A stretch of 41,859 bases of DNA. Source: Bacteroidota bacterium (GTDB lineage Bacteria > Bacteroidota > Bacteroidia > Bacteroidales > GCA-2748055). How positions within the stretch are numbered: the first letter of the stretch is position 1; the number at the start of each line of letters is the position of its first letter. Both the position numbers and the translations under genes were made by a program. Positions 3,311-30,511 of this stretch are shown here, in pieces. The stretch is from NCBI GenBank assembly GCA_003648635.1, contig QMPQ01000005.1, forward strand, positions 1 through 41,859, in the 5' to 3' direction. The notes below the pieces were generated by a model. That model was not told the DNA's origin and made no database searches. It saw nothing but the letters and a program-made list of their open reading frames with translations.

Positions 3311-4732
3311 TTACATTTTTAGTTTTTTCTCAATTTCGTCGACCTGGAGCCGGAAGCGTTTATCCGTTTCAATCAGGTTATTCACTGTTTTGCATGCATG
3401 CAATACGGTGGCATGGTCCTTTCCTCCAATCTGGGAACCAATGGTAGCCAGAGATGATTTCGTCATGGATTTGGAGAAGAACATAGCCACCTGGCGTGCT
3501 TGTACGATCTCACGCTTACGGGTTTTTGATTGCAGCATTTCAAGTCCTATATTGTAGTAATTGCATACCACTTTCTGAATATAGTCAATGGAAATCTCCC
3601 TTTTGGTGCTCTTTATGAGCTTGTCGATCATCTCTTTGGTCAGCTCAAGAGTGATCTCCTTTTTATTGAGTGTCGACTGAGCAAGAAGGGAAATAAGCGC
3701 ACCCTCCAGTTCACGGATATTATCCGATATATGCGTGGAGATATACTCCAGGACCTCTTCAGGTAACTCGATACCATCGTTGTAGGTTTTCTTCTTCAAA
3801 ATGGCCATGCGAGTCTCAAAGTCGGGGGGCTGCAAATCTGCACTTAGGCCCCACTTAAACCTGCTGAGAAGCCTGGACTCCATCCCCTGTAACTCTACAG
3901 GAGGCTTATCTGAGGTCAGAATAAGCTGTTTTCCACTCTGATGGAGGTGATTAAATATATGGAAGAAGGTATCCTGGGTCTTTTCTTTTCCGGCAAACTC
4001 ATGCACATCGTCGATAATCAAGACATCAATCATCTGGTAAAAATGCAGGAAATCATTTTTATTGTTGTTCCTGATGGCATCCACAAATTGGGTCTGGAAC
4101 TTATTGGCATTTACATAGAGGACAATTTTTTCAGGGAATAACTCTTTAACCTCAATACCAATGGCCTGAGCAAGGTGGGTTTTCCCCAATCCGCTATCCC
4201 CGTAGATCAACAGGGGGTTAAAGGCTGTGCCTCCGGGATTTTTCGAAACGGCAAAACCAGCAGAACGGGCCAGCCTGTTGCATTCACCCTCAATAAAATT
4301 ATCAAAAGAGTTTTCCGGATTGAGTCTGGGATCAATATCCAGTTTCTTCAATCCCGGAATCACAAATGGGTTCTTAATGGTATTTTCACTGGCATCTAGC
4401 GGAACAGAGACAGGAATGTTTTTGATTTCCTTGCTGCTTTTGGCCGGGAATTTGACCGTATAGGGTTTACTGTTGTTGTATGAGTTATTCTGCATGATCA
4501 CATTATACTCCAGCTTGGCCTCCGAGCCCAGCTCCTTTTTGATCACTTTTCGCAGAATATCAATATATTGCTCTTCCAGATACTCGTAAAAGAAGGGACT
4601 GGGAACCTGAATGGTCAGAATATCATTATCAAGCTTAAGAGGAACAATCGGCTCAAACCAAGTACGAAAACTTATTGAGGGGACATTGTCTTTAATCACT
4701 TTCAGACAATTGTTCCAGATACGTTCATGCAT
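3311..4732 (-). CDS. dnaA: Chromosomal replication initiator protein DnaA
   Basis: 473 residues from the ATG at 4732. The longer frame starts at a TTG (4744) that adds only MTFE, and I prefer the ATG. Domain I is at about 1-80 (ERIWNNCLKVIKDN, FRTWFEPI), with a short variable linker at about 80-120. The AAA+ domain III has Walker A GDSGLGKT (about 178-185), Walker B VLIIDDVHE and a sensor region. Domain IV ends with GGKDHATVLHACKTV, the DnaA-box-binding helix-turn-helix signature. It initiates replication by opening oriC. The upstream 356-base gap carries no recognisable DnaA-box cluster, so oriC is probably elsewhere. A strong terminator follows the gene. Confidence 0.98.
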   Translation of the reverse strand: MHERIWNNCLKVIKDNVPSISFRTWFEPIVPLKLDNDILTIQVPSPFFYEYLEEQYIDILRKVIKKELGSEAKLEYNVIMQNNSYNNSKPYTVKFPAKSSKEIKNIPVSVPLDASENTIKNPFVIPGLKKLDIDPRLNPENSFDNFIEGECNRLARSAGFAVSKNPGGTAFNPLLIYGDSGLGKTHLAQAIGIEVKELFPEKIVLYVNANKFQTQFVDAIRNNNKNDFLHFYQMIDVLIIDDVHEFAGKEKTQDTFFHIFNHLHQSGKQLILTSDKPPVELQGMESRLLSRFKWGLSADLQPPDFETRMAILKKKTYNDGIELPEEVLEYISTHISDNIRELEGALISLLAQSTLNKKEITLELTKEMIDKLIKSTKREISIDYIQKVVCNYYNIGLEMLQSKTRKREIVQARQVAMFFSKSMTKSSLATIGSQIGGKDHATVLHACKTVNNLIETDKRFRLQVDEIEKKLKM

Positions 4733-5100
4733 TTCAAACGTCAATTTTAGGGTTAGGTTACTACTTTTTCAGCTTGTGAGAATCCTGAAACAAAGATTGT
4801 GAAAAAAAAGTAGAAAAAAAACTTCAGATGACTTGAAAGTGTCAGAAAAACTATATCAGTTTTAAGGTCAATTATTTATGAAGTGAAAAAAAATGTAAAT
4901 ATAATAATAAACAGTAAATCAGATAGTTATGCCATAAGCCCTTCTTATGAAGCTTAATGAATTGTTATTTAAACCTTTAGTCCACCCAATTCAATATTTC
5001 ATTTAACAGGAAGCCCTATTATATGTTAAATTTTAACATGAAAACCGGACTTTCATCAAAAATTTAAGCTTCTGAAAAATCCGCTACGGAATATTTCTCC
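4733..5100. other. AT-rich intergenic region upstream of dnaA
   Basis: About 360 bases with no plausible gene. It is very AT-rich, with several runs of seven or eight A. I searched by eye for TTATCCACA-type DnaA boxes on both strands and found none. A weak dnaA -7 candidate (AATCTTTG, 4798 to 4791 on the minus strand) matches TAnnTTTG at 7 of 8 positions. A perfect 8-1-8 palindrome lies at 5023-5039. I see nothing else. Confidence 0.6.
5023..5039. repeat. Perfect 17-base palindrome ATGTTAAA-T-TTTAACAT
   Basis: Arms at 5023-5030 and 5032-5039 with a single central T. It lies 62 bases downstream of the MlaD-like stop and far upstream of dnaA. It could be a protein-binding dyad or a weak hairpin at the end of the envelope operon; no T-run follows on the leftward strand. 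Confidence 0.5.
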
Positions 5101-27117: not shown

Positions 27118-27342
27118 ATGAAGGTAAAAAAGATTATTGCGTATACATTGTCGGCACTTGTACTGCTCTTTTCTCTTGTGGCCATCCTTGGAATCTGGGA
27201 TGTGGTCGATATCGAATACCTTATCGCACGCATGTTTAAATCCTTGATGGTGGTCCTTGCTGCTGCAGCTGTGGTAGTGCTTATTTTTTCCATTTTGGAC
27301 AGACCCGAGAGGCCCGACAGAAGGGAGATCGACGAGGGCTAA
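27118..27342 (+). CDS. Small two-helix membrane protein
   Basis: 74 residues with two hydrophobic segments (about 8-26 and 43-60) and a charged C-terminus (DRPERPDRREIDEG). It starts 40 bases after the ATPase, so it may be the last gene of the uptake operon. The stop overlaps the 3' end of the convergent glycosyltransferase gene by 4 bases. No named family recognised. Confidence 0.7.
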   Translation: MKVKKIIAYTLSALVLLFSLVAILGIWDVVDIEYLIARMFKSLMVVLAAAAVVVLIFSILDRPERPDRREIDEG

Positions 27343-28454
27343 GCAAGCATCCTTAGAATTTTTTCTGCACCGGCCCTGTTGGAAAACTCCTGCAGGGCCT
27401 TTTTTCGCGTCCTGATCTGTGACTCTTCGAAGGCTAGTAGCATCAGTCTATGAATCTGATCCTGCATTTCACGGCCCTCTTTGGCCACTGTGCAAAGACT
27501 TTCCAGGCCACTCCCTTCCACCATTTCCGGGTTCACCAGGCAATGCCTTCCTGCGTATAAAACATGCAGGAGTTTGAGCTTGGTCCCGGTTGCTTGTCGC
27601 GTGAGAAGAAGGTTAATCTGGGCCTGGGCAATCAGCTTATCAAGTTCCTGGTCGCTAGGACTAGCAATCAGGCGGATGTTGGAAAAACGGGCTATCTTTT
27701 TCCGGAAACGAAGGGATGGGTTTTTTCCTGCTACGACCACCAGGTAGGGAAGCCTGGAGAGTAGCTCTTTGGCCAGGCTTAGAAAAATCTCTGAATTTTC
27801 AACTACTCCCAGATTACCGTGATACAGGATATATGTACCAGAGCCTGGCAATGAGCTTACTTCTTTAAACCTGTGAAATGCTGGGATGAAAATGGCAGAG
27901 CTGTAATTTTCATTAAAATATATGGTTTCATGCTTTGCTATGCTCAGGATATGGTCGGCATGATGCATTATTTTCTCATAGCGTTTCAGTTTGCGAGCTT
28001 CGGACCAGAAGAACAGCTTGTGTAAGGGATTTCGTGTGGAGAGGGCAAGGCCTCTGTAATAGGCATGTTCAATATTGTGTGCTCTCAACAGTATTTGCTT
28101 ATTGGCCTCCATGCATTGTGGCAGTACTCCAGTGGTATGTAACCCCTCAAAAAGAACAGGGAATGAATCCCCGAGAAGGTTTTTTGGCATAGTATTTGCT
28201 ATTCTAGTAACTACAATATATGGATCGGAGCGAAAAAAATATTTCAATCCAAGCTTACGGTCATAGTAATAGACTTTAAAGCAAAGATCCTCGAGTTCTT
28301 TGGAATGTGTACGTCCGTATTGGAAACAATGGAGAATTATCCGAACCCCCGCTTGTGAAAGTGCCTTCAGTTTATAGTAAATATCGATGACACCGCCATA
28401 GTCGGCCGGGTAGGGGATGTCGAAAGAAACAATATGAAGATATTGTGAAGGCAT
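27339..28454 (-). CDS. Glycosyltransferase (GT4-like fold)
   Basis: 371 residues from the ATG at 28454; a GTG at 28463 would add three residues. N-terminal YLHIVSFDIPYPADYGGVIDIYYKLKAL resembles the donor/acceptor entry of GT-B enzymes. A C-terminal Rossmann half contains GTYILYHGNLGVVENSEIFL and LHVLYAGRHCLVNPEMVEGSGL, typical of family 1/4 glycosyltransferases. It should transfer a sugar to a cell-surface or lipid acceptor in the cytoplasm. It stands alone and no polysaccharide cluster surrounds it. A 7-3-7 dyad lies between its -7 box and the start. Confidence 0.85.
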   Translation of the reverse strand: MPSQYLHIVSFDIPYPADYGGVIDIYYKLKALSQAGVRIILHCFQYGRTHSKELEDLCFKVYYYDRKLGLKYFFRSDPYIVVTRIANTMPKNLLGDSFPVLFEGLHTTGVLPQCMEANKQILLRAHNIEHAYYRGLALSTRNPLHKLFFWSEARKLKRYEKIMHHADHILSIAKHETIYFNENYSSAIFIPAFHRFKEVSSLPGSGTYILYHGNLGVVENSEIFLSLAKELLSRLPYLVVVAGKNPSLRFRKKIARFSNIRLIASPSDQELDKLIAQAQINLLLTRQATGTKLKLLHVLYAGRHCLVNPEMVEGSGLESLCTVAKEGREMQDQIHRLMLLAFEESQIRTRKKALQEFSNRAGAEKILRMLA

Positions 28455-28473
28455 ACTAAGCACTGGATACCAG

Positions 28474-28490
28474 AAGTAGTCTAACTACTT
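28474..28490. repeat. Perfect dyad AAGTAGT-CTA-ACTACTT at the glycosyltransferase promoter
   Basis: Seven-base arms (28474-28480, 28484-28490), three-base centre. It touches the leftward -7 box (28497 to 28490) and sits where transcription would begin, the position of a classic operator. As RNA it could also fold as a leader hairpin. Confidence 0.5.
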
Positions 28491-28497
28491 AAAGATA
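28490..28497 (-). promoter_or_regulatory. -7 box of the glycosyltransferase (TATCTTTA)
   Basis: 7 of 8 match to TAnnTTTG on the minus strand, 35 bases before the ATG at 28454. Confidence 0.4.
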
Positions 28498-28671
28498 GGA
28501 CAAAAAATATTAACAATTTTTAATGAATTTTTTTAAAAATTAGTGCAACTTTTTCTGAAATTGCACGTTATAAAAATGTAGAGACTTTATTGATTATCAA
28601 ATAGATAATTTCGTTCTTTTAATTCTACATTTCTTTTCATAGATTTAGTTTTAGGGTTAGTTTAGTTTTAA

Positions 28672-28705
28672 GGTCCCTCGGCGCTCGCTGGGGGATCTTT
28701 TTTTT
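28672..28705 (+). terminator. Rightward intrinsic terminator immediately before argS
   Basis: GGTCCC pairs with GGGATC (one G-U) around a GC-rich loop, followed by T8 ending at 28705. It abuts the argS -7 box. Confidence 0.65.
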
Positions 28706-28712
28706 ATCTTTG
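28705..28712 (+). promoter_or_regulatory. -7 box of argS (TATCTTTG)
   Basis: Exact TAnnTTTG. Its final base is the first base of the GTG (28712) that would lengthen argS, so the start is the ATG at 28730, 17 bases downstream. The region where a -33 would lie is inside the terminator stem. Confidence 0.65.
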
Positions 28713-28729: not shown

Positions 28730-30511
28730 ATGCAGAGAATTGAAAAGATTTTAAAGGACCTGGTTGCTCAGGCAGCTCTCCAACATTGGAATATAAATCT
28801 GGAAGAGGAGCACATCCAGGTGCAGAAAACCAGGAGAGAATTTGAAGGAGACTTCACCGTGGTGGTATTTCCCCTGCTCAGGTATTCGAAGCAGAATCCC
28901 GAGCAAACCGGAAAGTTTCTCGGATCATATCTTGTGGGTTCCTCTGATTTGATCGAAGCCTTCAACGTGATAAAGGGATTTTTGAATTTGGTCGTGGCAC
29001 AGCAATACTGGAAAGATCAACTCGATGGCCCTCTTTGTTCCCATGATTATGGAATGATCTTGCCAGGGGCAGATGCTCCGACAGTGATGATTGAGTATTC
29101 TTCACCAAATACAAATAAGCCATTGCACCTGGGTCATATCAGGAATAACCTCCTTGGCCATTCAGTATCCAGTATCCTGAAAGCCACAGGAAAGCATGTG
29201 GAACAGGTAAACCTGGTAAACGACCGGGGAATTCATATCTGCAAATCCATGCTGGCCTGGCAGAAGAATGGCAATGGGGAAGATCCTGTTTCGTCGGGGA
29301 TGAAAGGAGATCACCTGGTGGGTAAATATTATGTGCGTTATGACCAGATCTACAAGTCGCAAGTGCAAACGCTTGTGGAAAAGGGCATGCCGAAGAAGGA
29401 AGCTGAGGCAGAGGCGGAAGTGTTGAAAGAGGCAAGAGAGATGCTTCGTAGGTGGGAAGCAGAAGATCCTGAGGTCAGGAAGCTCTGGGAGACAATGAAT
29501 TCTTGGGTTTATGCTGGATTTGAGCTTACATACAAGCGACTGGGTATATCCTTTGATAAAACTTATTATGAGTCGGAGACCTATAAATTAGGTAAAGAAC
29601 TAGTGTTGAAAGGACTAAATAAAGGCGTGCTCTACCAGAAAGAGGATGGCTCGATCTGGGCCAACCTGGAGGAGGAGGGACTTGATCATAAGCTCTTGCT
29701 CCGCTCAGATGGAACCTCCGTTTATATGACTCAGGACGTGGGGACTGCTCACCAGCGCTACGAAGAGTCGGTTTTCGATTCACATATCTATGTGGTTGGG
29801 AACGAACAGAATTACCACTTCCAGGTACTGACCATAGTACTGAAAAAGCTGGGCTATGCCTGGGCCGATAAACTATACCATCTGAACTATGGTATGGTTG
29901 AATTGCCCGAGGGAAAAATGAAGTCCCGGGAAGGCACAGTAGTGGATGCCGACGAGCTGATGGATGAGATGGAAGATACCGCCCGGCAGATGTCGGAAGA
30001 GCTGGGTAAGCTGGAGGACTTTACAGAGGAGGAGAAGAGTCGCATCTACAGGCAGGTGGGAATGGGCGCCCTCAAATATTTTATTTTAAAGGTTGATCCC
30101 AAGAAGAACATGACTTTTGATCCTCGCGAATCTGTTGATTTCAACGGAAATACAGGGTCATTCATACAATATACCTATGCCCGTATCCGTAGTGTATTGA
30201 GAAAAGGAGCAGAGAAGCATAAGGGCACAAGTCAGGAAGTCCTCAATGAAAAGGAGATTGCCCTGATAAGGATTATGTATGATTTTCCTGAAATACTTGT
30301 TGAAGCAGCGCGTACACTGAATCCCTCACTGCTTGCTAATTTCCTGTATGAGCTGGCTAAAGAGTTTAACCAGTTCTACCATGATCATAGCATACTCAGT
30401 GCCGAAACGGAGGGGCAGATAAGCCAGCGCTTATTGCTGATAGAGTCTGCAGGGAATATAATTGAATCGGGCATGGAACTATTGGGAATAGAGGTGCCTG
30501 AGCGTATGTAA
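28730..30511 (+). CDS. argS: Arginyl-tRNA synthetase
   Basis: Class I synthetase, 593 residues. The N-terminal Add-1 domain (about 1-115) recognises the tRNA D-loop. The HIGH-type motif is SPNTNKPLHLGHIRNN, with HLGH at about 133-136. The KMSKS-type motif is GKMKSREGTVVDADEL, and the all-helical anticodon-binding DALR domain fills the C-terminus (GNTGSFIQYTYARIRSVLR... to EVPERM). I chose ATG 28730 because the upstream GTG overlaps the -7 box. The TPR protein gene follows 24 bases later and may be co-transcribed. Confidence 0.97.
   Translation: MQRIEKILKDLVAQAALQHWNINLEEEHIQVQKTRREFEGDFTVVVFPLLRYSKQNPEQTGKFLGSYLVGSSDLIEAFNVIKGFLNLVVAQQYWKDQLDGPLCSHDYGMILPGADAPTVMIEYSSPNTNKPLHLGHIRNNLLGHSVSSILKATGKHVEQVNLVNDRGIHICKSMLAWQKNGNGEDPVSSGMKGDHLVGKYYVRYDQIYKSQVQTLVEKGMPKKEAEAEAEVLKEAREMLRRWEAEDPEVRKLWETMNSWVYAGFELTYKRLGISFDKTYYESETYKLGKELVLKGLNKGVLYQKEDGSIWANLEEEGLDHKLLLRSDGTSVYMTQDVGTAHQRYEESVFDSHIYVVGNEQNYHFQVLTIVLKKLGYAWADKLYHLNYGMVELPEGKMKSREGTVVDADELMDEMEDTARQMSEELGKLEDFTEEEKSRIYRQVGMGALKYFILKVDPKKNMTFDPRESVDFNGNTGSFIQYTYARIRSVLRKGAEKHKGTSQEVLNEKEIALIRIMYDFPEILVEAARTLNPSLLANFLYELAKEFNQFYHDHSILSAETEGQISQRLLLIESAGNIIESGMELLGIEVPERM

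Follow-up and report, generated by a model that had tools for sequence, protein, structure and literature searches.

The window analyzed here, the whole 41,859-nucleotide stretch of DNA, holds a non-coding stretch flanked by a leftward glycosyltransferase-like gene (27339–28463, minus strand) and by argS, for arginyl-tRNA synthetase (28730–30511, plus strand), both functions being as named in an earlier, sequence-only reading. For argS, an ATG start at 28730 is favored over a GTG at 28712. Relatives of the glycosyltransferase adjoin the RNA described below across the taxonomic family (tblastn), so the position of this RNA is conserved. Each neighbor has a promoter box of its own outside the RNA gene. 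The −7-like box TATCTTTA (28490–28497, minus strand), recognizable in most same-genus loci, is the probable promoter of the glycosyltransferase-like gene; the −7 consensus is given as TAnnTTTG (PMC7366714). The −7 box of argS, TATCTTTG (28705–28712, plus strand), lies directly after a T-run, just where it had been noticed before. Further upstream, a TTAACA-N4-TTAA element (28510–28525), kept in related loci, precedes the promoter of the RNA and is a possible activator site. Tandem TTAA half-sites 10–11 bp apart are also seen upstream of the AAC box at other loci (L109, L112, L113, L125, L111 and L115); they occur in several families and resemble a response-regulator site.

Four inverted repeats and a terminator had been described in this stretch, and all were recovered in place. 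The first repeat, GTGCAACTT/AAATTGCAC, joins 28543–28551 with 28558–28566; the second, AAATGTAGA/TCTACATTT, joins 28574–28582 with 28624–28632 and has ATTATC/GATAAT (28593–28598 with 28604–28609) nested within it. The two copies of TTAGTTTTA were likewise confirmed at 28645–28653 and 28662–28670. The plus strand folds at −45.9 kcal/mol vs −30.8 kcal/mol in shuffles (z −3.98), a value equaled by 1 of 200 shuffles, and the minus strand also beats its shuffles (z −3.97; 0 of 200 as good). A search for compensatory changes, which the sequence-only reading had proposed for this region, gave a divided answer: the terminator stem covaries strongly, the nested 5′ stems are without compensatory change, and the hairpin at 28543–28566 is not kept.

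The predicted RNA gene and its conservation in the family

From these features, the DNA upstream of argS is most likely the gene of a conserved, rightward small regulatory RNA, predicted at about 28577–28706 (plus strand, ~130 nt), with a 5′ end placed from the promoter to within several nucleotides and a 3′ end placed from the terminator. Support for the earlier suggestion of a small RNA comes from its promoter, its conserved core, its covarying terminator and its conserved position. A 5′ stem-loop domain (28574–28632) is formed by the outer stem 28574–28582/28624–28632 and the inner stem 28593–28598/28604–28609; the transcript may start a few bases inside the outer stem. Within the genus, these nested stems are nearly unchanged in sequence, with 93.8% pairing and no pair altered on both sides, and covariation is uninformative for them because the sequence is almost invariant. 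In most other genera, single-sequence folds place a different local stem-loop before the core, in the same place, though not clearly so in those predicted for L008 and L028.

The 5′ domain is followed by a near-invariant unpaired stretch, the seed TTTTCATAGATTTAGTTTTAGGGTTAGTTTAGTTTT (28634–28669), which is antisense to translation start regions. It contains most of the TTAGTTTTA repeats, earlier taken to be near −7 boxes and better placed as part of this conserved antisense stretch. In the family alignment, conservation of the core exceeds everything around it. Since the core carries indels of 1 and 2 bases between genera, a conserved reading frame is unlikely. Transcription is predicted to end at an intrinsic terminator (28670–28706) with a 13-pair stem (28670–28699), a 4-nt loop and T8. 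In its stem, 33 cells show changes on both sides (12.5 in shuffles) and 95% of cells are paired; the covariation score of 0.689 compares with 0.321 for shuffles and with no more than 0.297 when the stem is slid along the alignment. As a variation on this layout, the seed unit AGTTTTAGGGTTAGTTT is tandemly duplicated (18 nt extra) in L012:4210-4371 (G007) and L058, giving a longer antisense stretch.

Two other candidates in the region were discarded. The hairpin at 28543–28566 was rejected as an RNA structure, as its stem is not kept in relatives (67.4% of cells paired vs 66.4% in shuffles); it had been noted for a T-rich tail on its leftward side, and is better read as the −35/−10 region of a rightward promoter. 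No leftward transcript is needed besides that from the glycosyltransferase's own promoter. A small leftward ORF of 17 codons, on the strand opposite the RNA, was also rejected, because one-base indels within the genus break its frame by eye.

The RNA is present in 24 of the 28 genomes of the family (23 listed loci plus L052), within the genus and in other genera, upstream of argS, and these loci share the core TTTTCATAGATTTAGTTTTAGGGTTAGTTTAGTTTT, then a GC stem, then a T-run. Of the four genomes in which it was not found, three (G006, G009 and G023) lack argS or have only a fragment of it, and in G011 the contig stops 449 nt upstream. A pattern scan of genome contigs yielded 29 stretches, comprising 21 family loci, one further RNA-like locus (L065) and seven that were dropped, the architecture of the RNA being absent from them. 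In four distinct genomes (L010; L013/L048; L012/L058; L046), a gene for a methyltransferase-like protein of 271 aa lies between the RNA and argS, either inserted there or lost elsewhere. The RNA is intact in all four, and the box TATCTTTG stands directly before argS itself in L010 and L013. Because of this intervening gene, the position beside argS is read as a conserved neighborhood with no regulatory link; judged by gene order only, the RNA is not co-transcribed with argS.

Predicted promoter elements and probable kinship with FopS

At Rfam gathering scores, there was no match in the window, and 19 loci outside the family gave four tRNAs only. The best Rfam match is FopS (RF04319), over the full model length but at 28.6 bits vs a cut-off of 56, with E 0.023 for 451 bases (0.05 for the genome) and 9 bits above the next match in the genome. 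GibS (RF04182) matches at 16.2 bits vs a gathering score of 115. Searching 393 Bacteroidales genomes with R1, a model derived from the loci of the family, gives matches in 60 at E ≤ 0.05 (~20 expected by chance) and, at E ≤ 0.005, in 16 genomes outside the family (~2 expected). The matches inspected consist mostly of TTTTTTCATAG(G) plus a terminator, some in tandem, and R1 recovers two FopS loci that lie over Rfam's own cut-off (G191:C7:21699-21769 and G351:C44:2239-2310). The full-length Rfam match and this reciprocal recovery support kinship with FopS, which itself passes the cut-off in 75 of the 393 Bacteroidales genomes and has been described, from BLAST at word size 28, as conserved within Bacteroidaceae (PMC11697453).

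With a broader model, R2, full-length relatives are also recovered from genomes of the class that lie outside the order. R2 is without base pairs and many of its partial matches are start regions in antisense, for which reason its 133 of 395 class genomes are not a count of RNAs. Two of the full-length relatives outside the order (L186 in G782 and L187 in G726) lie just downstream of the end of an efp-like gene, by eye, and are possibly 3′-UTR-derived RNAs. Elsewhere (L107, G209:C89; L117, G222:C162), near-identical related RNAs with −7 boxes of the housekeeping type stand in tandem at distances of ~180 and 520 nt. At many FopS loci (L197–L236), a palindrome resembling ATGTTnnnnAACAT precedes the −7 box and GTTAAA-N4/5-GTTAA lies further up; both are possible FopS activator sites.

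The spacing of AAC and CGT found upstream of the RNA is the usual shape of promoters read by ECF sigma factors. The predicted ECF-type promoter, GCAAC-N16-CGTTATAA (28545–28573, plus strand), consists of a −35 element GCAAC (28545–28549), whose AAC is invariant in a 15-sequence alignment, and a −10 element CGTTATAA (28566–28573), whose CGTT is equally invariant there. AAC-N16/17-CGT[AT] occurs in 21 of 23 family loci vs a shuffle mean of 0.26, being absent from L029 and L032, so that AAC and CGT at 16–17 bp are kept in relatives, as expected of an ECF-sigma-dependent promoter. Outside the family, 24 loci were scanned from 26 listed R1 matches, second copies within two loci being omitted: the ECF-type pattern is found in nine (mean 0.48 and never more than 4 in 500 rounds of shuffling), the housekeeping box in six, and none carries both. 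Among FopS loci (40 stretches, of which four were dropped for absence of the search word), TAnnTTTG is present in 36 of 36 and the ECF-type pattern in 1 of 36. In the RNA's own genome the pattern is not enriched, with 6 sites vs 11 for the reversed control, and we therefore make no claim of a regulon; two of the other sites just precede genes with signal-peptide-like starts.

An ECF-type promoter with a CGT box has been described in Flavobacterium (PMC9723704). Non-canonical promoters of B. thetaiotaomicron have been suggested as possible ECF targets (PMC12596196), and GibS is reported to use a non-canonical promoter (PMC11697453), so that an ECF link for such RNAs would have some precedent. 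Judging by these elements, a stress-type (ECF) promoter appears to control the small RNA, in contrast to the family known from gut Bacteroides, which it otherwise resembles. In the titles and abstract openings covered by our literature search, no report was found of this RNA or of any ECF-driven FopS-like RNA. On sequence grounds, we call the locus an RNA of the FopS/GibS kind that differs from FopS in copy number, promoter and 5′ hairpin.

Complementarity to SusC translation starts

Read as its reverse complement, the core gives CTAACCCTAAAACTAAATCT-ATGAAAA, a translation start, and the unpaired stretch is antisense to start regions of the form ...AACCCUAAAACUAAAUCU-AUGAAAA. Nine full SusC genes in this genome, all over the TIGR04056 cut-off, were compared with 228 control genes from the window and from 15 stretches of 20 kb. 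For all nine SusC starts, the pairing energy with the core lies between −18.2 and −29.5 kcal/mol (control median −12.8) and within the best 7.5% of controls (p 6.4e-7); three pair better than all 228. Shuffled cores never reached the observed SusC mean (0 of 300; z −6.5, and z −5.4 for same-genus relatives). A slight advantage over shuffles (z −2.9) is seen for ordinary start regions as well, part of it arising from the choice of the best ATG in each gene. A search with the 26-nt core at up to three mismatches matched no start region in this genome, only the locus itself. In a blind scan, the three other R2 matches listed for the genome each proved antisense to a start region, two belonging to SusC genes and the third to a lipoprotein-like gene.

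In five relatives, 30 of 110 listed SusC matches were evaluated against controls from the window's genome only. Among 18 same-genus starts, eight are in the best 5% of controls (p 2.9e-6), as are six of 12 from another genus (p 0.001); overall, 14 of the 30 are in this top fraction and 16 are not outstanding. The best control start is AACCTAACCCTAAAATT before the ATG at 4732 (window ~4725–4775, minus strand), which belongs to an ORF at 3311–4744 (minus strand), dnaA-like by eye, and pairs with the core at −23.9 kcal/mol; this pairing may be due to chance or mark a further target.

No RRM_1 protein, the family of RbpB, was detected in this 97% complete genome or in the relatives G003 (98%) and G002 (96%), and such proteins are patchy in the family (15 of 28 genomes). 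The RNA thus persists in genomes that appear to have lost an RbpB-type protein. This persistence fits the report that RbpB at 1 µM left duplex formation in vitro unchanged (PMC11697453).

As one rival reading, an RNA of the FopS/GibS kind, with the action proposed below, could be transcribed by the housekeeping sigma factor from TACATTTC (28626–28633); it would be short and lack the 5′ stem-loop, and the ECF-type elements would be there by coincidence. The TAnnTTTG box of every FopS locus scanned and the conservation of TACATTTC in most of the genus speak for such a start; we nevertheless consider it unlikely, as TACATTTC touches the seed, whereas the box ends ~7 nt before UUUUUCAU in the six FopS loci inspected. 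A start there would also cut into UUUUCAU, which covers the start codon, and other genera keep AAC-N16/17-CGTT, not TACATTTC.

Less probable still is a core with no regulatory role, a mere terminator region of start-site-like composition whose SusC pairing stems from AU-rich starts. The slight advantage of ordinary starts over shuffles would suit it, but composition-matched shuffled seeds did not attain the SusC value in 300 rounds, the core is conserved above all its surroundings, and similar RNAs are found at unrelated loci. We give the least credence, close to none, to the proposal of an argS leader with an attenuator, in which a transcript started upstream would enter argS and terminate at 28670–28706 unless charged tRNA-Arg is scarce. 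The terminator does end at the argS promoter, and the RNA immediately precedes argS in most family genomes. Yet argS has its own −7 box 3′ of the terminator, the methyltransferase-like gene intervenes in four genomes with core and terminator still intact, there is no conserved leader ORF and the 5′ domain carries one-base indels, and most relatives of the core adjoin other genes.

Proposed action and known counterparts

Our preferred reading, to which we assign a probability of roughly three in four, is a small RNA of the FopS/GibS kind that acts in trans under an ECF-type promoter, pairs with SusC starts and blocks ribosome loading. It builds on what can be read in the DNA itself, namely promoter-like elements, a conserved core, a covarying terminator and specific complementarity to SusC starts; from these we infer transcription of the RNA, its drive by an ECF sigma factor under envelope or nutrient stress, and translational repression by pairing. 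Transcription would proceed rightward from the ECF-type promoter and the product would fold into the 5′ stem-loop, leaving UUUUCAUAGAUUUAGUUUUAGGGUUAGUUUAGUUUU unpaired before ending at the intrinsic terminator. The unpaired stretch would then pair across the start codon and its 5′ side in mRNAs beginning ...AACCCUAAAACUAAAUCU-AUGAAAA, with mRNAs of SusC-type outer-membrane transporters as the chief targets, so that ribosome loading would be blocked. Experimental proof of such repression comes from FopS of B. thetaiotaomicron alone, in which FopS-10 is reported to pair beside the susC start codon and to block translation in vitro, an effect counteracted by RbpB (PMC11697453). By analogy, the RNA of this locus most likely acts on SusC as FopS-10 does.

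SusC transporters are the means of glycan uptake of the Bacteroidota. We envision, tentatively and with somewhat less than even confidence, that FopS is the Bacteroides branch of a Bacteroidia-wide small RNA family with the start-codon-antisense seed UUUUUUCAUAGGUUUAGUUUUAGGUU, and that one branch, including this locus, came under an ECF sigma factor, such that stress would shut off SusC porin synthesis in a clade without an RbpB-type protein, as a counterpart of sigma-E/MicA-RybB. If so, a single-copy, SusC-mirroring RNA with a stress-type promoter would give the phylum porin silencing of the enterobacterial style. It would also offer a candidate class of regulator for RNAs like FopS, whose inducer is unknown according to PMC11697453, and lineages with the RNA but without the RRM protein would separate the role of the RNA from that of RbpB.

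In enterobacteria, the envelope-stress sigma factor sigma-E drives the small RNAs MicA and RybB, which repress outer-membrane porins at the start codon. The working principle proposed here is the same, although the sequences are unrelated and from another phylum, and ECF control here is deduced from promoter shape only. With FopS, the locus shares UUUCAU-N4-UUAG-N-UUUA-N-GGUUA at identical spacing, an unpaired 5′-proximal stretch followed by a Rho-independent terminator (with a stem-loop coming first here), a seed complementary in silico to SusC translation start regions, and no coding capacity that we could see. It departs from FopS in having one locus per genome, compared with a reported 12–15 (PMC11697453), ECF-type elements in place of the canonical sigma-ABfr TAnnTTTG promoter, a 55-nt 5′ stem-loop domain, and a genome in which no RRM_1 protein of the RbpB type was detected. 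Like GibS, whose length is 145 nt, it is an intergenic RNA in single copy and of comparable size, with a promoter of non-canonical type (−10/−30 in GibS) and a conserved seed pairing at start codons (PMC7366714). For the GibS promoter motif PM2, 'TGTT' is given near −10 (PMC12596196); the letters here are CGTT. The neighbors differ, and GibS is described as having a second seed, R2, and metabolic-enzyme targets (PMC7366714).
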